A stretch of 64,000 nucleotides of DNA from Fusobacterium ulcerans ATCC 49185 (GTDB taxonomy: Bacteria > Fusobacteriota > Fusobacteriia > Fusobacteriales > Fusobacteriaceae): NCBI RefSeq assembly GCF_900683735.1, contig NZ_LR215979.1, forward strand, positions 3,410,001 through 3,474,000, in the 5' to 3' direction. The notes under the pieces were generated by a model. That model was not told where the DNA came from. It saw only the letters and a program-made list of their open reading frames with translations, and did not search any database. A program made the position numbers and the translations under genes. How positions within the stretch are numbered: the stretch's first letter is position 1; every line of letters starts with the position of its first letter. Of the stretch, positions 26,802 to 56,560 are shown piece by piece.

Positions 26802-26814
26802 AAAATAATTTTTT

Positions 26815-27153
26815 AAGGTATTAGAGTTGATCGCTGCTTGAGTAATCAAGGAGAGGAAAGTCCGGGCTCCACAGAGCAAGAGGGCAGCTAACGGCTGCTA
26901 AAGGTAACTTTAAGGAAAGTGCCACAGAAAATAAACCGCCATATTTATATGGTAAGGGTGAAAAGGCGGTGTAAGAGACCACCAGTTCTTTAGGAGACTA
27001 AAGAAGCTAGGTAAACCCCCTCTGGAGCAAGGCTAAATAGGAAAGTATAAAGGGCTGCTCGTCCTCTTTCAGGGTAAGTTGCTTGATACCATAAGCAATT
27101 ATGGGGCTAGATAAATGATCATCAAATACAAAACCCGGCTTATTTAATGCCTT
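26815..27153 (+). ncRNA. rnpB: RNase P RNA (type A)
   Basis: The catalytic RNA that trims tRNA 5' ends. The universally conserved core is clear: GAGGAAAGTCCGGGCTCC near the 5' end, CAGAAAATAAACCGCC, GGTAAGGGTGAAAAGG, and a distal ATACAAAACCCGGCTTA. The P1 helix pairs AAGGTATTA (26815-26823) with TAATGCCTT (27145-27153), which sets the ends. The length of about 339 bases fits the ancestral bacterial type. It may be cotranscribed with the upstream gene; no separate promoter was found. Confidence 0.96.
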
Positions 27154-27185
27154 AAAAATTTTTTAAAAAAAAAGTAAAAAAGATA

Positions 27186-27241
27186 TTGACGGAATCTAAA
27201 AATTATGGTATTATAATTCTTGTCCACGAGAAAAGAGGACA
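27186..27241 (+). promoter_or_regulatory. rRNA operon promoter with +1 hairpin
   Basis: TTGACG (27186-27191), 17 bp and TATTAT (27209-27214), preceded by an A-rich tract that could act as an UP element. A short hairpin TGTCC/GGACA (27221-27241) begins at the predicted transcript start. The leader to 27351 otherwise holds one arm of the 16S processing stem (27276-27285). Confidence 0.65.
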
Positions 27242-27351
27242 GAAAATAAAAGTAATAAAAAAGGACATTAACAACAGAATAGAGAGAGAAGAAAAAATCA
27301 ACAAACAATAAATAGGTGTAAACAATCAGTTAAAAAACTGAGTAAATAGAT

Positions 27352-28859
<1,508 letters not shown>

Positions 28860-29032
28860 CTAAGGAGATCATTTCTCTTTCTCTATTCTATTGATAATGT
28901 TCTTGCAGCGTATTAAGCGCTGGATAACTTATCAAATGGACATTGGAAACTATATAGTAGATAAAATACAATTTTAACTCTTGTTTATATAAACAGAGTT
29001 AGCTGTCAATCAAATTAAACAAAAACAAAATA
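28860..29032 (+). other. 16S-23S spacer without tRNA genes
   Basis: A 173-base spacer carrying no tRNA. It holds two RNase III-type processing arms. TCTCTATTCT (28880-28889) pairs with 27276-27285 before 16S. The 15-base GAAACTATATAGTAG (28946-28960) pairs perfectly with 31969-31983 after 23S. Confidence 0.75.
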
Positions 29033-31943
<2,911 letters not shown>

Positions 31944-32012
31944 AAGATTGAAAGCGCGAAAGCGTATGCTACTATATAGTTTCAAGTGTCTATTAGAAAA
32001 AATAAAGACACA

Positions 32013-32130
32013 GCTTGGTAAGAATAGCTGCGGGGGTACACCTGGTCCCATTCCGAACCCAGAAGTTAAGCCCGTAAACGCTGAAAGTACTTGGAGGGAA
32101 GCCTCCTGGGAGGATAGGAACTTGCCAAGC
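32013..32130 (+). rRNA. rrf: 5S ribosomal RNA
   Basis: About 118 bases, with terminal helix GCTTGG/CCAAGC. The conserved internal CCCATTCCGAACCCAGAAGT and the loop AAGCCC are present. It lies 69 bases after the 23S 3' end. Confidence 0.95.
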
Positions 32131-32140
32131 TCAAATGAGT

Positions 32141-32216
32141 GCTTCCTTAGCTCAGTCGGTAGAGCATGCGGCTGTTAACCGCAGTGTCAATGGTTCAAGT
32201 CCATTAGGAAGCGCCA
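32141..32216 (+). tRNA. tRNA-Asn (GTT)
   Basis: A full cloverleaf of 76 bases with encoded CCA. The acceptor stem is GCTTCCT/AGGAAGC, the D arm GCTC...GAGC, the anticodon stem TGCGG/CCGCA with loop CTGTTAA (anticodon GTT), and the T arm AATGG/CCATT with TTCAAGT. It directly follows 5S and ends the rRNA operon; a T-rich stretch follows. Confidence 0.97.
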
Positions 32217-47634: not shown

Positions 47635-48039
47635 ATGGCTACTTTTAAAGTTAAAGTTGTAAATTATCAAGAAAAAGTTTTGGAACAGGAAGCAGAGTTT
47701 CTTTTGGTAAGAACTACTGAAGGAGAAATGGGAATCCTTCCCAATCATTCACCTTTTGTTGCAGGGCTTGCTATTGGTGAAATGAAAATCAGACTCAATG
47801 GTGAAGAAAAATGTTACTTTGTTTCAGGAGGATTTCTAGAAATATCTAATAATATTGTAACTGTGCTAGCTGATGAAGCTATGCCGTGTGAAATGATAGA
47901 CTTAGAAAGAGCTAGAAAAGAGGCTGAAGAAGCTAAGGCTAAATTAGATAAATTAAAAGAAGATAAAGATATTCTTCTAACTGAAAAGAATTTAAATGAA
48001 GCTTTAGTAAAAGTTCGTTTAGCTGAAAAATTATTATAA
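47635..48039 (+). CDS. atpC: ATP synthase subunit epsilon
   Basis: The 134-residue stalk subunit that regulates ATP hydrolysis. The N-terminal beta-sandwich includes GEMGILPNHSPFVAGLAIGEM and CYFVSGGFLEISNN. A C-terminal helix hairpin (RARKEAEEAKAKLDKL) follows. It ends the operon before two successive hairpin terminators. Confidence 0.95.
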   Translation: MATFKVKVVNYQEKVLEQEAEFLLVRTTEGEMGILPNHSPFVAGLAIGEMKIRLNGEEKCYFVSGGFLEISNNIVTVLADEAMPCEMIDLERARKEAEEAKAKLDKLKEDKDILLTEKNLNEALVKVRLAEKLL

Positions 48040-48316: not shown

Positions 48317-48345
48317 TTGAACTTATATATTTTGTATGCTATAAT
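48317..48345 (+). promoter_or_regulatory. Promoter of the fimbria-like operon
   Basis: TTGAAC (48317-48322), 17 bp and a perfect TATAAT (48340-48345), about 74 bases ahead of the first gene. No inverted repeat or recombinase site that would suggest phase variation was seen around it. Confidence 0.65.
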
Positions 48346-48418
48346 TCGATTAAAGATATAATTGTTCAAAAAAATACCAAATAAAGATGGAAATAAACAA
48401 AACAGGGATGATAAGCTT

Positions 48419-48835
48419 ATGATAAAAAAAATTTTTTGGTTTTTGTTAATAAGTTTAAATTTGTATTCAGGGGAGTTTCAACAAGTTTCTACTGTAATAA
48501 AGATAACAGGGAAAGTTGTTGCCAATGCTTCATTAGTTGTAAAAGTAGATGGAGTAGAAACAAATGAAATAGTAATGGAAAACTATATCAAGGGATCAAA
48601 TAATAAAAGTATGAAAACGCTTACATTTGGCTTGAAAGAAGAGTATACAAATGGGTCTATAAATTTAAAAGATGTAGATTATAGTGGAAATGAAAAAAAT
48701 CTCTATAAGATAGAGAAAGTATCTGATGGAGAAGAGAAAAAATTTAAAATATCATATAATACAGAAATTTTAAATAAAATGAATCATGGAGATGAAGTAG
48801 AGGACACTATAGTTTTTACTGCTACCTATGATTAA
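48419..48835 (+). CDS. Small secreted fimbrial-subunit-like protein (operon gene 1)
   Basis: A 138-residue protein with a signal peptide (KKIFWFLLISLNLYSG) and a strand-rich mature part. It starts with STVIKITGKVVANASLVVKV and ends in DTIVFTATYD. The final strand, alternating hydrophobics with an aromatic near the end, matches the last strand of other small proteins in this operon. Such a strand is what pilin chaperones clasp. The ATG at 48419 is preferred; an upstream in-frame TTG at 48362 would hide the signal peptide. No cysteine is present. Identity as a pilin is inferred. Confidence 0.6.
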   Translation: MIKKIFWFLLISLNLYSGEFQQVSTVIKITGKVVANASLVVKVDGVETNEIVMENYIKGSNNKSMKTLTFGLKEEYTNGSINLKDVDYSGNEKNLYKIEKVSDGEEKKFKISYNTEILNKMNHGDEVEDTIVFTATYD

Positions 48836-48848
48836 ATGAGGAGTGAAT

Positions 48849-49559
48849 ATGAAAAAATTAATGAGTATTGTATTTATGTTTTTGATGGTAACTGTAAGTA
48901 GTTTTGCATTCTTCAGAACTTCGGTAGCACCAGGAATATTTGAAATGAATCTGGATAGATCAGCTACTGAGGAAATAATACTTGTAAATAATTCAAATGA
49001 ACCTATCAGAGTAAAAGTTTATCCAGGAAAAGATGAAAATATTAAAGATGAAGAGTATCTTGGAGACTGGCTGAGAATATATCCAAGAACTATGACTCTG
49101 GAAGGAAATTCAGAAAGAAGAATAAAGTTTTCTGTAAGAGCTCCTAAAGAAAAACCAGATGGAGAATACAGAGGACTGATATATATAGAGGAACTGCCTG
49201 AAGTGGTGGAGGGGCAAAGTACATTGACTTTAGCTGGAAGACATGGGCTTACAGTGTATGGGACTAAAGGAAAAGTAGAATATGATATAGTTGTTTCAAA
49301 TGTAAAAGTTGTAGATAATGAACTTACAATGAATATTAAAAATAACGGGAAATACAGCTTAAGACCAGAGGTTAAAATAAACGATCTTTCTGCTAAAGGG
49401 AAAAAGATAGGAGAAATGGAAGAAAAAACTGGAAGAATTTTAAAAGGAAATACAGCATCAATAAAAATAGAACTTAAAGATTTAAAAGGTGAAGCTGCAG
49501 AAATAAATGTAGCTGGAAAAGGTAAGGTACTTTATAGTGAGACTGTAAAGTTAAAATAA
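48849..49559 (+). CDS. Periplasmic fimbrial chaperone, PapD-like
   Basis: A 236-residue protein with a signal peptide (KKLMSIVFMFLMVTVSSFAF) and two immunoglobulin-like domains. Conserved chaperone features include VAPGIFEMNL...EIILVNNSNEPIRVKVY in the first strands (with an Arg just before, as in PapD Arg8), WLRIYPRTMTLEGNSERRI, and DGEYRGLIYIEE closing domain 1. Domain 2 is shorter and divergent. It carries no cysteine. The likely role is to hold subunits from this operon in the periplasm by donating a strand. ATG 48849 follows GAGGAG; a GTG at 48843 overlaps that site. Confidence 0.8.
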   Translation: MKKLMSIVFMFLMVTVSSFAFFRTSVAPGIFEMNLDRSATEEIILVNNSNEPIRVKVYPGKDENIKDEEYLGDWLRIYPRTMTLEGNSERRIKFSVRAPKEKPDGEYRGLIYIEELPEVVEGQSTLTLAGRHGLTVYGTKGKVEYDIVVSNVKVVDNELTMNIKNNGKYSLRPEVKINDLSAKGKKIGEMEEKTGRILKGNTASIKIELKDLKGEAAEINVAGKGKVLYSETVKLK

Positions 49560-49577
49560 AAAAGGAGATGACGTATC

Positions 49578-50009
49578 ATGAAAAAAACGTTTTTTATGGT
49601 AGGAATATTGGCAGCATTATCTATAACAGCATTTGGAGCAGATTCAGATGGAACAACAACAATAAATCTTAAAGGAACAGCAGTAGCAGCAATAAATATA
49701 GTTCCTCAAGGTGGAGACACAATAGACTTTGGAAGAGTTATGGCTACAAAAACTTCAAATCAAAGTAAAATATTAGATATTACTGGTACTAAAGAACAAA
49801 AAGTTAAAATAAAAGCGGATTTAGGTAGTGCAGGAAGCTTTATAACAATAGCAAGTGATAGTGGAATAACAGCTGATTATGGGACTGTTATTGATTTAAC
49901 TTCAACAGGAAAGGCAACAGCTACATTGAAATTAACATATGCCCCATTGGCAGATACAGACAGTCTGACTAATGAGACAGTAATAGTAACAGCAACATAT
50001 AGTGATTAA
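49578..50009 (+). CDS. Probable major fimbrial subunit (operon gene 3)
   Basis: A 143-residue secreted protein: signal peptide KKTFFMVGILAALSITAFGA, then a Thr/Ala/Gly-rich beta domain. It contains GTAVAAINIVPQGGDTIDFG and ends ETVIVTATYSD. The composition, size and last strand resemble major pilins of the CS1/alpha and spore-coat-U-like families. The strong AAAGGAGAT site and Ala-rich composition suggest it is the most abundant subunit. IDFG recurs in gene 7. A purification-type search against pilin families would be decisive; no match was run. Confidence 0.65.
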   Translation: MKKTFFMVGILAALSITAFGADSDGTTTINLKGTAVAAINIVPQGGDTIDFGRVMATKTSNQSKILDITGTKEQKVKIKADLGSAGSFITIASDSGITADYGTVIDLTSTGKATATLKLTYAPLADTDSLTNETVIVTATYSD

Positions 50010-50063
50010 ATCTAAATAACTAAATCAGGAGGAGGAATCCTCCTTTTTTATAAAGGGGAAAAT

Positions 50064-50462
50064 ATGAAATTGAAACTACTATGTATTTTCTTGATGATAA
50101 CAGCAATAAATTTTTCTCAAGAATTAAAACCACTTATAATAACTGAAAAGCAGGGATTTTATTTTGGAACTATTATAAAGAATTCTTCATCTAAGAAAGT
50201 AGCTCCACTTAGAAATCTTATACTCAATATAAAAGGCAGTCCATTTGAGGAAATAGAAGTAGAAATGGATAATTATTTTGAATTAGGTGACAATATATAT
50301 ATTACAGATATAATTTTATTGAATAATGAGGCTTTAATTTTAGACAAAAATGGGGAAATTGATTTAGAAATAAAAGGTAATTTATATGTTAATTCAAAAG
50401 TAAAAGCAAAGACAGCTAGAGAAAAAGTTGGAAATCCTGTCTATGTGGAGTATAAAAAGTGA
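50064..50462 (+). CDS. Small secreted subunit-like protein (operon gene 4)
   Basis: A 132-residue secreted protein with signal peptide KLKLLCIFLMITAINFSQ. Its mature region opens PLIITEKQGFYFGTIIKNS, where YFG echoes the DFG of genes 3 and 7, and ends NPVYVEYKK. The last strand again alternates and ends in an aromatic pair. It overlaps the usher-like gene by 4 bases, and a short hairpin-like GGAGGAGGAATCC lies between gene 3 and it, which may reduce expression relative to gene 3. Confidence 0.55.
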   Translation: MKLKLLCIFLMITAINFSQELKPLIITEKQGFYFGTIIKNSSSKKVAPLRNLILNIKGSPFEEIEVEMDNYFELGDNIYITDIILLNNEALILDKNGEIDLEIKGNLYVNSKVKAKTAREKVGNPVYVEYKK

Positions 50463-53023
50463 AAAAAATAATTTTGATATGCATATTGATATTTTTCAGC
50501 AGTTTTACCTATTCTGTTGATATGGAAAATATTGTAGATGGAAATATGGATATTCAAATAAACAGAGTAAAAGAAGAATTTTTTCCTTTATATATTGATG
50601 AAGTAAAGGAAATAGGGTATATACCTTTAAATGAATTTTTATATGTTGCAGAACTTAATGATATTGAGATAAATTTTGAAAAAAAACAGGTAAATGGAGT
50701 TATTCCAAATGGACAAAGGATAAAATGGGAATTTGATCCAGATATTTCTTTTGTAAAAGCTCAAGAATTATATATTGATGTAAGCAAATTAAGTGCTGTT
50801 ATGCCAGTAGAAAAATTAGTATTTGATTTGCCAATGCTGAATATAAATATAAAGCTTCCTTTTAAACTGCCCTCTGATATGAGATATGAACAGGAGCAGA
50901 AAAGAAGAGGTATGGGAAGTGAAAGAGAAAAAGATGCTCATGATGTTATAGGAAATAAGAAGATGTTTTCTCCTGGAGTAGTTGAAATAGAGTATGAAAA
51001 AACTAATTTAAATGAAGGAAAAGGAAAGTCTTTAGATATCAATTACTCAACACAGTTAATGTATGGAGAACTTGATAGTGAATTCAGCATTTATGATGAC
51101 AGCCAAAAAAATAAAAGTAAACCTGAGATAGATTCAATTTCATTAACATACGAAAATGTAATGGATAAAAAAGATGTTGTTTTAGGAAGTTTTTATATGC
51201 GGACACCATCTTTTTATGATGTAGATAATAATATAAATGGAATAAGTATTTTAGATTCATCAGAAAGATTTGATGTAACAGAAAAAGATGGAAATATTTT
51301 TGAAGGTTACGCACCAACAGGGTCAGTAGTTGAATTATACAGAAATGGAATATTAATAGATTATCAAAATGCGGAAAACCAAAGATACAGATTTGAAAAT
51401 ATAAATACACAGTCATTAACAGATAAGTATTATATAAGAATATATAAAACAGATGGAACATATATTCAAAAAGATCTTTCTCTATGGTTAAACAATAAGA
51501 ATTTAAGCAAAAATACATGGAATTACAGTATACAGAGTGGAAAAGTTGATAGAAAAGGGGATAATGATTTTATTGGAACTTTAAAATATGGACTTAATAA
51601 TTTTATGACTGCAGAAGTAGGATATTATAATCTGGCTGGAAAGTCAGAAGAAAGAAAAAAATATGATGAAATGTCCTATGGAATGTACATAAATTCTCCT
51701 CCTGTTAAATTTCCTTTCTGGGCGAATATCATATGGTATCAAGATAGAGAAGAAGGAGATGGAACTCTTACTTGGGAATATAGACAGAATTTTTATGATT
51801 TTATAATTGAAGGTATTGGAGAAAAATATAGCAGAAGAATAAGTGAAGAAGAAAAGAAAGATGAAAAATATAGAGCTAATATCAGAAAAAGTTTTGGAAG
51901 ACTGAATATTGGAACTGGATATGAGGTTGAAACATATCAGGGGAATCATTATACAGATTATATAGGAAGTGTAGGATATAATCAGAGATATTTGAGCAAT
52001 ACTTTAGAATATAGATTTCAGGAATATTCAGATGATGTTAAAAGAAATAGGCATATTACAAGATTTCAAACAGGAATATCATATTTTGATAATATTAATA
52101 TAGTAACTGAAGTAGAACTAAAATATGATAATAATTGGGAAGTGCTTGAAGATAAGTATTCAGTGAAGTTTATAAGAAGAAATAATGGATACTACAGCAA
52201 AAAATATTTTGATTTGTCACTAGGAGTTACTTATTCTACTAAAGATGATGACCGTTTAAAAATGGAAATGAATGGAACTGTTTATTTGGAAGATTTTGGA
52301 GTGCCATTTGTAGATACTGAAATTTCTTTTGATGCAAGTGATGAAAAGGGAAGTACTAAAAAAGTGGGAACTAAGTTTAGAAAAATTCTCATTTTGGAAG
52401 ATATAGAGAGAAACAGTAGATTAAAAAATAAATCTAACTCATGGGTAAGTGGAAAAGTATATATAGATAACAATGCAAATTCTAGGTTTGATGTAGAAGA
52501 TGAAGTATTACCAGATATAAAGGTAAGTATCTTAGGAAAAAGTATAGAAACAGATGCTGATGGAAATTATCTGATAGAAGATATATCATCTAATGCTGAA
52601 TTTAATGTGAGAGTTGATAGAACATACATTGATCCACTGCTGTATTATGATGAAGAAAAATATTATAAATTGATGCCATCTACTGGAATGAAAATAGATA
52701 TACCATTTCAAAATACTATCTCTCTAAGTGGGAATGTAATTGTACATGGAGAAAATATTGATGTGGAAAGTCTTCCATATATATTTAATAAAATTAAAAT
52801 AGTTATAAAGAATGGAGATAAAGAAGTAAAAAGTTTAAAACCTGAATTTGATGGTTATTTTATAGTAGATGGTTTAATAGAAGGAAATTATACTGTTGAA
52901 TTGTCTTCAAGAGATGAACTGTATAAACCTATGAAAAATAAAATTGAAATTACTATAAAGCCAGATGAAATAGAAAATGGTATTTTTGAAATGGGAAAAT
53001 TAATTTTTACAGAGGAGATTTAA
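50459..53023 (+). CDS. Usher-like outer-membrane protein with C-terminal carboxypeptidase-regulatory-like domain
   Basis: An 854-residue secreted protein (signal peptide KKIILICILIFFSSFTYS). Residues about 20-150 form an N-terminal domain (PLYIDEVKEIGYIPLNEFLY). An outer-membrane beta-barrel-like region with many alternating aromatic strands spans about 165-645. A plug-like insert is at about 284-345 (YAPTGSVVELYRNGILIDYQ). Residues about 661-730 form a prealbumin-like fold (SGKVYIDNNANSRFDVEDE, then ETDADGNYLIEDI). This order matches alpha/CS1-type ushers. It would export and assemble the small subunits. It starts at GTG 50459. Confidence 0.75.
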   Translation: MKKIILICILIFFSSFTYSVDMENIVDGNMDIQINRVKEEFFPLYIDEVKEIGYIPLNEFLYVAELNDIEINFEKKQVNGVIPNGQRIKWEFDPDISFVKAQELYIDVSKLSAVMPVEKLVFDLPMLNINIKLPFKLPSDMRYEQEQKRRGMGSEREKDAHDVIGNKKMFSPGVVEIEYEKTNLNEGKGKSLDINYSTQLMYGELDSEFSIYDDSQKNKSKPEIDSISLTYENVMDKKDVVLGSFYMRTPSFYDVDNNINGISILDSSERFDVTEKDGNIFEGYAPTGSVVELYRNGILIDYQNAENQRYRFENINTQSLTDKYYIRIYKTDGTYIQKDLSLWLNNKNLSKNTWNYSIQSGKVDRKGDNDFIGTLKYGLNNFMTAEVGYYNLAGKSEERKKYDEMSYGMYINSPPVKFPFWANIIWYQDREEGDGTLTWEYRQNFYDFIIEGIGEKYSRRISEEEKKDEKYRANIRKSFGRLNIGTGYEVETYQGNHYTDYIGSVGYNQRYLSNTLEYRFQEYSDDVKRNRHITRFQTGISYFDNINIVTEVELKYDNNWEVLEDKYSVKFIRRNNGYYSKKYFDLSLGVTYSTKDDDRLKMEMNGTVYLEDFGVPFVDTEISFDASDEKGSTKKVGTKFRKILILEDIERNSRLKNKSNSWVSGKVYIDNNANSRFDVEDEVLPDIKVSILGKSIETDADGNYLIEDISSNAEFNVRVDRTYIDPLLYYDEEKYYKLMPSTGMKIDIPFQNTISLSGNVIVHGENIDVESLPYIFNKIKIVIKNGDKEVKSLKPEFDGYFIVDGLIEGNYTVELSSRDELYKPMKNKIEITIKPDEIENGIFEMGKLIFTEEI

Positions 53024-53024
53024 A

Positions 53025-53459
53025 ATGAAAGCAATCACCTTTCCTTTATTGTTTATTTTTTTCTTTGAATATTCCTATAGTATTTATCAAAATACTAATT
53101 TTAGTAAAATGGTAGCAAAATCTGAAATGTCAATGAAAGGAAAAATAATAGATATAAAGGGTTTAGAAGAAAAAGCACCTCTAAAAATTGAAATAATAAA
53201 TCTTGCTGCTGATGGAAATATAACTCTTGTCTTTAACCATGAAAATATGGAATTATTTAGTGATAAAAATGATTTAGTAGATATAGACATTTCAAAAATC
53301 AGTGCAGAAAAATCTCAAACTGGATTTAATATAAAAGTAAAAAGCAGCATTTTAAATCAAGATTTAATAGAAGTTTTAAAAACTAAGCAGTTTATTGAAT
53401 TAGATACTCCAGAAAAAGAAAAAATGAAAGTAATAAAATTAACAGCTATATATAGGTAG
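53025..53459 (+). CDS. Small secreted subunit-like protein (operon gene 6)
   Basis: A 144-residue protein with signal peptide KAITFPLLFIFFFEYSYS and a strand-rich mature part (MKGKIIDIKGLEEKAPLKIE) ending MKVIKLTAIYR. The ending matches the TATY/TASY ends of genes 1, 3 and 7 with one change. GAGGAG lies before the ATG. It starts 2 bases after the usher-like gene. No cysteine and no recognised family. Confidence 0.55.
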   Translation: MKAITFPLLFIFFFEYSYSIYQNTNFSKMVAKSEMSMKGKIIDIKGLEEKAPLKIEIINLAADGNITLVFNHENMELFSDKNDLVDIDISKISAEKSQTGFNIKVKSSILNQDLIEVLKTKQFIELDTPEKEKMKVIKLTAIYR

Positions 53460-53466
53460 GAGAAAA

Positions 53467-53862
53467 ATGAAAAAAATAATTTTTATATTGAATATATTTT
53501 TATCAATAATAGTGTATTCAAGTGAAAGGGCATATTTTAGACCAACAGCAGTATATGAAGTAAAAGACCCTATTACAATAACTTCTGACAGAAATGAGAT
53601 TGATTTTGGAATTCTTTTGGATGGGCAGGTAGGAAGAGTATCAGGACATACTTTGACACTGACTGGAACAGGAAATATGAATGTAGAATACAGTTTAAAT
53701 GTTTCTCAGGAAGATGCTGGACTTGAAATAAGAGAGGCAAGCAAAACAATACAAAGTAATGGAGCAGTATATAAGTATAATTACATATGGGATACTTCAG
53801 AGAGTAAGATAAAAAATTTAAAAGGTACTGTGATAAGATTTACAGCTTCATATACAGAATAA
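53467..53862 (+). CDS. Small secreted subunit-like protein (operon gene 7, candidate tip or minor subunit)
   Basis: A 131-residue protein with signal peptide KKIIFILNIFLSIIVYSS. NEIDFGILLDGQVGRVSGHT parallels the IDFGRVMATKTSNQSK of gene 3, and LTLTGTGNMNVEYSLNV parallels LDITGTKEQKVKIKADL, so the two are related pilin-like domains. It ends GTVIRFTASYTE. It is the last gene before the operon terminator. Confidence 0.6.
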   Translation: MKKIIFILNIFLSIIVYSSERAYFRPTAVYEVKDPITITSDRNEIDFGILLDGQVGRVSGHTLTLTGTGNMNVEYSLNVSQEDAGLEIREASKTIQSNGAVYKYNYIWDTSESKIKNLKGTVIRFTASYTE

Positions 53863-53902
53863 AATAATCAGTCTAGCAGAAAATCTATTATAATGATAAA
53901 AT

Positions 53903-53936
53903 AAAGAGGAAGGTTCAAAGGCCGACCTCTTTTTAT
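53903..53936 (+). terminator. Terminator of the fimbria-like operon
   Basis: A 7-bp stem (AAAGAGG paired with CCTCTTT) with a 16-base loop, running into T. It closes a unit that began with the promoter at 48317. Confidence 0.7.
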
Positions 53937-54460: not shown

Positions 54461-56560
54461 ATGGAAGATTTAAAAAACAGGGTAGATGAACTTTTAGAAA
54501 ATCAGGAATACGACAAAGCTCTAGAGCTCCTTACTGAGAATGAAATAAATGGGAAAGCAGATACATGGACTAATTCAACAACAGGATGGATACTTGGAAA
54601 ATTAGGGAGAAAAGAGGAAGCTTTAGAATATTTAAGAAAAGTAGAGGGAGAAGAGGAAGAAAATACATGGTTATGCTGTGAAATAGGTTGGAATCTTGGA
54701 GCTCTAGGAAAGAGTAAAGAAGCAGTATATTATTTGAATAGAGCTAAGGAACTAGGAAGAGATGATGTATGGATTAATAGTGAATTAGGTTGGAATATGG
54801 GAAGATTAGATAGAAATGAAGAAGCAGTATACTATCTGAATAGAGCTAAAGAATTGGGAAGAGATGATACATGGATATTTGAGGAGCTAGGCTGGAATTT
54901 AGGTATATTAAAAAAATATGAAGAAGCTCTTGAAAATCTAATAATATCAGAGAAAATGAAAGAACCAGATGCATGGACAAATTCACAGATAGGTTGGAAT
55001 CTTGGAAAAATGGGTAGAGATGAGGAAGCAGTGGCTTATCTGAAAAAAGCTGTAGAACAGGGAAGAGATGACACATGGGTTTTTTCTACTCTTGCATGGA
55101 ATTTAGGAAAATTAGATAGAAGCGAGGAAGCTTTAAAATATCTTTTAAAAGCAAGTGAACTAGGAAGAGATGATGAGTGGATTAATAGTGAGATAGGGTG
55201 GAATTATGATAGATTAGATCAATATGAGAAGGCCTATGAATATTTGAAAAAAGTTGAAGATATGGGAAGAGATGATGCATGGTTTTTCAGAGAATATGGA
55301 TGGTGTATAGGGAGATTAGAAGGGGATAGAGAAGAGGAAGCTCTGAAATATTTAAGAAAAGCTGAAGAGATTGAGGGAGCTGACTCATGGCTGAATACTG
55401 AAATAGGCTGGAATCTAGGAAAATTAGGAAAATATGAAGAAGCTCTTGAGAAATTAAAAAAAGCAGAGGAACAGGGAGACAGCAGTAGATGGTTATACCG
55501 CGAGATTGCATGGAACCTTGGAAGAGTTAAAAATCCAAAAGAAGCTTTAGAATACTTAAAGAAAGCTGAAGACAAAGATAATTTAACTCCTTGGATTTGT
55601 ACAGAATTTGCATGGAATTTAGGGAAGTTAGGAGAAGTAGAAGAGGCTATATTCTATTTGAGAAAAGCTAAAGAATTAGGAAGAGATGATGCTTGGGTAA
55701 ATAGAGAACTTGGATGGAATTTAGGAAAAATGGATAAATACAAGGAAGCTTTAGAATGTCTGAGAAAGGCGGAAAAAATGGAAGAGGATCCAGATGCATG
55801 GCTGTACAGAGAAATAGGCTGGAATCTAGGTATGCTTGATGAATTTGAAGAAGCTTTAGGATATTTAAGAAAAGCTGAAGAAATGGAAGAAGCAGATGAT
55901 TGGTTAAATTCACAAATAGGTTGGAATCTTGGAGAGCAGGATAAGTATGTAGAAGCTATGGTGTACATAGAAAGAGCCATGAAGCAGGGAAGAGATGACT
56001 CTTGGATAAATGGAGAATATGGATGGCTTTTAACTAAGATGGAGAAACATGAAGAAGCTTTAGATTATTTTAAGAAGGCAGAAGCAGAAAAAGAACCATC
56101 TAACTGGCTTTTAGGACAACTTGGAGATGTATATAAAGTGCTTGGAAAATATGAATCAGCTTTAGAATACTACAAAAGACTTGAAGAAGCAGATCCAGAA
56201 GATTCAAATAATTTTTCAAACATAGCTGATGTTCTTACAAAACTTGATAGAAGAGAAGAAGCAGCGGAATATTATAAGAAAAGTGAAAAAAAAAATGGTA
56301 AAGTAGAAAATTATAGTATAGCTGCTAATTATGAGAAGATAGGCGACTATGAAAATGCAGCAAAGTATTATTATAAGGTAATTACAGAAGAAAATAGAAG
56401 AGATACATGGATATATAAAAAAGCAGGAGCAGTTTTTAAAAAGATAGGAAAATATGCAGAAGCTTTAGATTGCTATAGAAAAGCTAAAGAATACAATGGA
56501 AAAAATAGTTCTAAAGATATAGATGCAGAAATAACATGGCTTGAAAGAAAAGTAAAATAA
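54461..56560 (+). CDS. Tetratricopeptide-like protein with Trp-rich GWNLG repeats
   Basis: A 699-residue soluble helical-repeat protein without signal peptide or membrane segment. About fifteen tandem 34-residue units share the form xxGWNLGKLGKYEEALEYL then KAxELGRDDxW (for example units starting EIGWNLGALGKSKEAVYYL). Four ordinary TPR units end the protein (GKYESALEYYKRLEEADPE). Each unit has an extra Trp at both the A helix and the loop, unlike consensus TPR. It is probably a protein-interaction scaffold. Partner unknown; it follows an acetyltransferase gene by 9 bases. Confidence 0.9.
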   Translation: MEDLKNRVDELLENQEYDKALELLTENEINGKADTWTNSTTGWILGKLGRKEEALEYLRKVEGEEEENTWLCCEIGWNLGALGKSKEAVYYLNRAKELGRDDVWINSELGWNMGRLDRNEEAVYYLNRAKELGRDDTWIFEELGWNLGILKKYEEALENLIISEKMKEPDAWTNSQIGWNLGKMGRDEEAVAYLKKAVEQGRDDTWVFSTLAWNLGKLDRSEEALKYLLKASELGRDDEWINSEIGWNYDRLDQYEKAYEYLKKVEDMGRDDAWFFREYGWCIGRLEGDREEEALKYLRKAEEIEGADSWLNTEIGWNLGKLGKYEEALEKLKKAEEQGDSSRWLYREIAWNLGRVKNPKEALEYLKKAEDKDNLTPWICTEFAWNLGKLGEVEEAIFYLRKAKELGRDDAWVNRELGWNLGKMDKYKEALECLRKAEKMEEDPDAWLYREIGWNLGMLDEFEEALGYLRKAEEMEEADDWLNSQIGWNLGEQDKYVEAMVYIERAMKQGRDDSWINGEYGWLLTKMEKHEEALDYFKKAEAEKEPSNWLLGQLGDVYKVLGKYESALEYYKRLEEADPEDSNNFSNIADVLTKLDRREEAAEYYKKSEKKNGKVENYSIAANYEKIGDYENAAKYYYKVITEENRRDTWIYKKAGAVFKKIGKYAEALDCYRKAKEYNGKNSSKDIDAEITWLERKVK
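54560..56112 (+). repeat. Tandem 102-bp coding repeats (about 15 copies)
   Basis: The DNA of the TPR-like gene repeats in units of about 102 bp, with recurring GGAAGAGATGATG and GGTTGGAATCTTGGAA blocks. Unit length is occasionally shifted by 1-2 codons (105-108 bp). The copies differ by many silent changes, so they are old rather than recently expanded. Confidence 0.8.

Follow-up and report, generated by a model that had tools for sequence, protein, structure and literature searches.

Do the Fusobacteria, a phylum known for its autotransporter adhesins, also build pili by the chaperone-usher (CU) pathway, and to which class of that pathway would such pili belong? The question is raised by a seven-gene operon lying in a 64,000-nucleotide stretch of the Fusobacterium ulcerans ATCC 49185 genome (contig NZ_LR215979.1, positions 3,410,001 to 3,474,000), which is referred to below, at its full length, as the window. 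Classical and alternative CU pili are confined to beta- and gammaproteobacteria, and archaic pili are distributed more widely (PMC4654587, PMC9452303), in proteobacteria, Cyanobacteria and Deinococcus-Thermus; Fusobacteria are not named in this range (PMC4654587). In the part of the open-access literature consulted, no description of CU pili or ushers was found for Fusobacterium, Fusobacteria or Cetobacterium, and an earlier mention is possible. The operon very probably encodes a CU pilus system that forms a lineage apart from the classical, alternative and archaic classes. The identity of the assembly machinery is well supported; a fibre, an order of its subunits, an adhesin and a target follow only by inference.

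The chaperone and usher pair

Seven open reading frames (ORFs) on the plus strand fill positions 48419–53862, in the order S1, chaperone, S2, S3, usher, S4 and S5 (S for candidate small secreted subunits), and the gaps between them are short or replaced by overlaps. The fifth product (854 residues) is an usher according to the fold of its AlphaFold2 (AF2) model, which was built from a 25-sequence family alignment (predicted local distance difference test, pLDDT, 78.7; predicted template modelling score, pTM, 0.60). The best 18 matches of this model in a Foldseek comparison with the PDB are all FimD or PapC structures (top E = 5.8e-25). The model has the parts of an outer-membrane usher: an N-terminal domain (residues about 25–132), a barrel (about 163 to 645) holding a plug insert (about 271–340) and C-terminal beta domains at about 661–740 and 750–852, both present in the AF2 model. 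CarboxypepD_reg and SdrD_B matches are seen across the usher family and, together with the AF2 strands, they agree with the first-pass annotation of this DNA, which had described a barrel with a plug-like insert and a prealbumin-like C-terminal domain; the protein modelled as an usher and not as some other barrel. Taken alone, the window usher had no match among the usher models of Pfam and NCBIfam, but family members from three genomes (G015, G080 and G083) exceed the curated cut-off of the Pfam Usher family (PF00577).

The second product was modelled with a pLDDT of about 95 across two immunoglobulin (Ig)-like domains, the architecture of the periplasmic chaperone of the CU pathway, as anticipated when it was first called PapD-like. 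Foldseek aligned about 225 of its residues with CfaA, FimC, Caf1M and CsuC (E = 8e-11 to 1e-9). This fold alone is unspecific, because WxLIP and the tandem Ig proteins of cilia are matched as well; the specificity of the identification comes from the sequence and the gene partnership. PapD_N is matched by 14 of the 28 members of the chaperone family (best E = 4.4e-8), and a single CU protein, the archaic chaperone CsuC, was found when the family profile was compared with all PDB sequences (E = 2.1e-4). Profiles were required for this result: phmmer searches of the PDB with single window proteins gave no CU match, and NCBIfam and PHROGs scans of the window proteins gave no useful match.

The two genes also travel together. 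Substantial usher matches were found in 40 of the 61 genomes of the window's own family (Fusobacteriaceae), a count obtained by subtracting short, weak matches in four genomes (G026, G029, G031 and G038) from a raw tally of 44; there were none in the 33 genomes of family f4 or in four others. Among the 61 relatives, usher-matching genomes all had a chaperone match (19/19), and ushers were found by profile in the two genomes that initially had a chaperone match only. The usher and chaperone genes are close neighbours in every intact locus examined, and their partnership is obligate. Fold, family extension and this universal pairing uphold the original suggestion of a CU-like system, and its description as divergent and complete, in a Fusobacterium-like host, has also stood. 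Carried by 40 of 61 Fusobacteriaceae genomes, such a pilus system would add a whole class of adhesin to the repertoire of this phylum.

The chaperone probably holds its subunits in the non-classical way, to judge from its alignment. Archaic and alternative chaperones share a Tyr-Arg pair in strand F that is absent from FimC. In CsuC, Arg89 of this strand anchors the C-terminus of the subunit (PMC4654587). The aligned column falls in a GEY[RK] motif in the family studied here and is basic (Arg or Lys) in 23 of its 28 members; in the window chaperone it is the arginine at residue 108. Since the CsuC arginine anchors the subunit C-terminus, this basic residue probably has the same role. A further basic residue lies near the position of the D2 anchor of CsuC (Tyr196/Arg174) in the alignment.

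Probable pilins, a hairpin and a proposed route of assembly

S2 is the only hypervariable gene of the operon. Its product is only 41% identical to its counterpart in the related genome G002, versus 90% for S1, 95% for the chaperone, 98% for S3 and the usher, 94% for S4 and 92% for S5. DNA divergence from G002 is limited to positions of about 49620–50000 (52–70% identity), and the adjoining chaperone, S3 and usher DNA is 94–100% identical. Such a pattern is as expected if a surface-exposed major pilin has been replaced or strongly diversified. A hairpin following S2 has been retained in three related genomes (G001, G002 and G003) and in Cetobacterium, and hairpins of -8 kcal/mol or lower lie behind 17 of 23 major-like pilins, as against 17% of random 80-mers. 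In the CS6 CU operon, expression falls sharply once a stem-loop between the subunit and chaperone genes is removed (PMC8923064); by analogy, the S2 hairpin is likely to act as a partial terminator or mRNA stabiliser. S2 is thus likely to be the major pilin, because it is the only hypervariable gene and has a conserved hairpin behind it, and it provides a concrete target for studies of surface variation and adhesion.

The other small subunits are better conserved. S1 displays 86–94% identity across three relatives and has a C-terminal alternating strand motif, and S3, with 76–98% identity in orthologs, lacks this motif as defined here. This motif, with its terminal aromatic residue, was recognised in 51 of the 80 operon subunits versus 13 of 151 background ORFs, with a p-value (1e-18) that is indicative because the motif was defined after looking. 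The first-pass annotation held that the subunits match no known family. This is correct for the five window subunits, none of which exceeded the threshold of any family in the Pfam scan, but it does not extend to the pilins of sister operons, which match DUF4402 just under its cut-off (5.9e-5 to 1.2e-3); the pilins of one marine relative exceed that cut-off, with values down to 1e-9. DUF4402, on which no paper was found in the open-access literature, would thereby gain a probable function.

These components suggest a route of assembly. Subunits would reach the periplasm by Sec, where a beta-strand of the chaperone would cap each unfinished Ig-like subunit and the basic residue of GEY[RK], which lines up with the anchor arginine of archaic and alternative chaperones, would probably anchor its C-terminus. 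By homology with known systems, the N-terminal domain of the usher would take up the complexes, the plug would open, and donor-strand exchange would join subunits that the barrel passes outward. S2 would be the major pilin, overproduced with the help of the downstream hairpin and diversified between strains, and S1, S3, S4 and S5 would serve as tip, adaptor or anchor subunits.

Position relative to the known classes

Comparisons with the known classes relied on size-matched three-sequence profiles, as hhalign comparisons with individual reference ushers, archaic ones included, gave no useful information. The Fusobacteriaceae usher profile aligned with that of a group of marine proteobacteria over 754 columns (E = 1.4e-46). 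Its matches to the classical (6e-8, 144 columns, in the plug region), archaic (9e-8, 204 columns) and alternative (2e-6, 558 columns) profiles were much weaker, and the known classes compared among themselves gave values of 5e-12 to 2e-32. For the chaperones, the marine profile was again the closest (2e-22), followed by the alternative (1.5e-11), archaic (4e-10) and classical (1.4e-5) profiles. In a maximum-likelihood tree of chaperones, weakened by long branches and thin reference sampling, a single branch (99/97) parts the Fusobacteriaceae and marine sequences from the three known classes.

The domain families that mark each class tell a similar story. FimD, used as a positive control, matches PapC_N, Usher and PapC_C, none of which is matched over the cut-off by the window usher in the Pfam scan; usher fold and domain order are as in FimD and PapC, but these missing matches, together with the classical chaperone profile, which is the most distant of all, separate the operon from the classical systems (type 1, P and F1). 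The likeliest rival reading is that the operon is an ordinary archaic (sigma) member that diverged along with its AT-rich genome and forms no separate lineage. Archaic systems are those reported outside the proteobacteria (PMC4654587), CsuC is the one CU protein of the PDB that the chaperone profile reached by sequence, the archaic usher profile aligns across 204 columns, and the operon shares with CsuA/B-CsuC-CsuD the anchor-arginine column and the anatomy of the usher. Set against this, three archaic reference ushers match Usher at 1e-24 to 1e-27 where the window usher has no match, and the SCPU (PF05229) pilins of archaic systems have no counterpart among the window subunits in the Pfam scan. 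Classical and archaic ushers also match one another (2e-32) better than they match the Fusobacteriaceae family, and the chaperone tree puts archaic sequences with the classical and alternative ones, on the other side of the branch from those studied here. Membership of the archaic class therefore appears improbable.

The first-pass annotation had instead read the operon as the parts list of an alternative (alpha, CS1-type) fimbria, and some features do point that way: the prealbumin-like C-terminal domain of the usher, a faint similarity to TcfC in the plug region (E = 0.26), the long alignment with the alpha usher profile, the affinity of the chaperone profile for alpha chaperones, and the non-classical chaperone features and Foldseek match to CfaA shared with the CFA/I, CS1 and ECP systems. 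Comparison with the controls does not support this attribution. EcpC and two other alpha ushers match TcfC (PF16967) at 1e-18 to 1e-19 and CooC_C (PF15976) at up to 7e-21, whereas in the window usher TcfC is far under the cut-off and CooC_C is absent; size-matched alpha usher profiles gave the worst score of all classes, the window usher showing no greater affinity for alpha ushers than for the classical or archaic ones. An alpha fimbria is accordingly very unlikely. Slightly less probable still is an export or surface-anchoring system without pilus machinery, in which the barrel and the two-Ig protein would be WxL/WxLIP-like, or an unrelated outer-membrane protein with a chaperone. It would account for the match of the chaperone to WxLIP_PGBD (PF06030), which is under the threshold (E = 7e-5; 23.3 bits versus a cut-off of 27.3), and for the WxLIP structures among the Foldseek matches, but not for a barrel that has only ushers as its best structural matches and has relatives above the Usher cut-off, nor for a chaperone family of which half matches PapD_N. 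To our knowledge, WxLIP systems have no usher.

Several observations weigh against a separate CU lineage that assembles pili. The pilus is predicted here from genes and models, and fibre assembly would follow from homology. The TM-scores of the usher model to its PDB matches are low (about 0.38), as is to be expected of a model of moderate quality. The window subunits exceed no family threshold in the Pfam scan, the S2 model is a partial beta-sandwich with a pLDDT of about 75, and a read-through fusion of chaperone and S2, from whose alignment several distant pilins were dropped because they had been wrongly aligned with the chaperone, gave a pTM of 0.55 with an arrangement that is not confident. 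The column of the CsuC D2 anchor tyrosine (Tyr196) is not conserved in the Fusobacteriaceae chaperones. The reference classes are also thinly sampled (three archaic, seven to eight alternative and five classical systems), with no archaic systems from Cyanobacteria or Deinococcus.

The marine relatives extend the lineage beyond the Fusobacteriaceae. A scan of GTDB genomes for usher orthologs identified loci in Cetobacterium, Thalassomonas, Paraglaciecola, Opacimonas, Neptunomonas and alphaproteobacteria. Of 369 gammaproteobacterial genomes, 11 carry such an usher over its full or nearly full length. In most of the marine loci examined, the neighbours of the usher are a chaperone gene that fits the family profile and pilin-like genes, one or two in number; Pfam scans of two such loci identified DUF4402 pilins, a PapD_N chaperone and an usher carrying SdrD_B. 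The gamma- and alphaproteobacterial operons (for example, those of Thalassomonas, L065, and Paraglaciecola, L068) have the same gene set as the window operon, and their ushers and chaperones align with its own over their full length. They differ in that their ushers are about 1000 residues long, extended at the N-terminus and, in some cases, carrying a C-terminal SPOR domain, and in that their pilins are clear DUF4402 proteins. No published description of these operons was found in the open-access literature. We lean slightly towards the broader view that the operons for DUF4402 pili in Fusobacteriaceae and marine proteobacteria make up a fourth major CU class, dating back as far as the divergence of the three known ones, with a pilin family of its own, and that pili of gut and aquatic Fusobacteriaceae are mainly of this type.

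Boundaries of the operon and related loci

The operon lies directly 3' of the ATP-synthase operon, the last gene of which, atpC, stops at 48039 and is closed by a separate strong hairpin (z = -5.2); a GNAT acetyltransferase gene follows it downstream. Its features are listed in Table 1. The seven genes were thought from the outset to lie between a promoter and a terminator, and this arrangement holds: the extended -10 promoter is kept in four orthologous operons and, like the gene order, in G001, G002 and G003, so the ORFs are not due to chance. The promoter was assigned by consensus match, and the terminator hairpin is not among the matches of a strict consensus terminator scan. An Rfam scan of the operon detected no RNA family. 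The starts of S1 and the chaperone were taken as the ATG codons at 48419 and 48849, rather than the longest-ORF starts (TTG 48362 and GTG 48843), and signal peptides were judged by eye, on the basis of a basic start and a hydrophobic stretch.

Table 1. Features of the F. ulcerans operon, in window coordinates
Feature	Position	Strand	Basis or comment
Promoter	48317..48345	+	TTGAAC, 17-nt spacer, TATAAT, TG extended -10
S1, candidate small secreted subunit, 138 aa	48419..48835	+	ends DTIVFTATYD
Periplasmic chaperone, 236 aa, two Ig-like domains	48849..49559	+	AF2, Foldseek, PapD_N in family, CsuC profile match
S2, likely major pilin, 143 aa, hypervariable	49578..50009	+	identity comparison, partial beta-sandwich model
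Hairpin after S2, AGGAGGAGGAATCCTCCT then T-run	50027..50044	+	likely partial terminator or mRNA stabiliser
S3, candidate small secreted subunit, 132 aa	50064..50462	+	conserved in orthologs
Usher, 854 aa	50459..53023	+	AF2 model, Foldseek, family members over Usher cut-off
S4, candidate small secreted subunit, 144 aa	53025..53459	+	ends VIKLTAIYR
S5, candidate small secreted subunit, 131 aa	53467..53862	+	ends VIRFTASYTE
Operon terminator hairpin, then T-rich run	about 53904..53932	+	minimum free energy structure, z = -1.9 for the stretch

Fusobacteriaceae often carry several copies of the usher system, and the 3.84-Mb genome from which the window was taken has three usher loci. The third of these (G000:C1:3194925-3197102, L037) is interrupted by stops and has an intact 856-residue counterpart in G002; it is a decayed copy. 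Another decayed copy, in genome G010 (L041:3192-5701), has its ortholog of the window usher broken into two ORFs and has lost the chaperone, S1, S2 and S3.

A second type of operon (L036:177-3754, L042 and L049) encodes a 700-residue protein that combines a periplasmic SBP_bac_3 domain with an HD_5 (HD-GYP-type) domain, plus an SBP_bac_5 protein, both encoded upstream of the adhesin and usher genes. The SBP_bac_3/HD_5 protein is a possible ligand-sensing cyclic di-GMP phosphodiesterase controlling the pilus. Immediately before the usher in L036 (3803-4642), and in L042, L048, L053 and L055, are similar genes for proteins of 270–285 residues in which a DUF4402-like pilin domain at the C-terminus is preceded by an N-terminal domain without assignment; these two-domain proteins are candidate tip adhesins and are absent from the window operon. 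Directly 3' of the usher, a secreted protein of 290–307 residues recurs in L036 (7280-8191), L042, L048, L049, L051, L052 and L053, and the L036 copy carries MORN_2 repeats. Four chaperone genes alternate with pilin genes within one operon at L036:8207-14115, an arrangement that suggests a dedicated chaperone for each pilin.

Elsewhere in the window, a 699-residue protein with many near-identical tetratricopeptide repeat units (RDDTWI/NLGKLGR type) is encoded at 54461-56560, and its position downstream of the operon is conserved. At positions 26814-32213, an RNase P RNA precedes a complete 16S-23S-5S-tRNA cluster.

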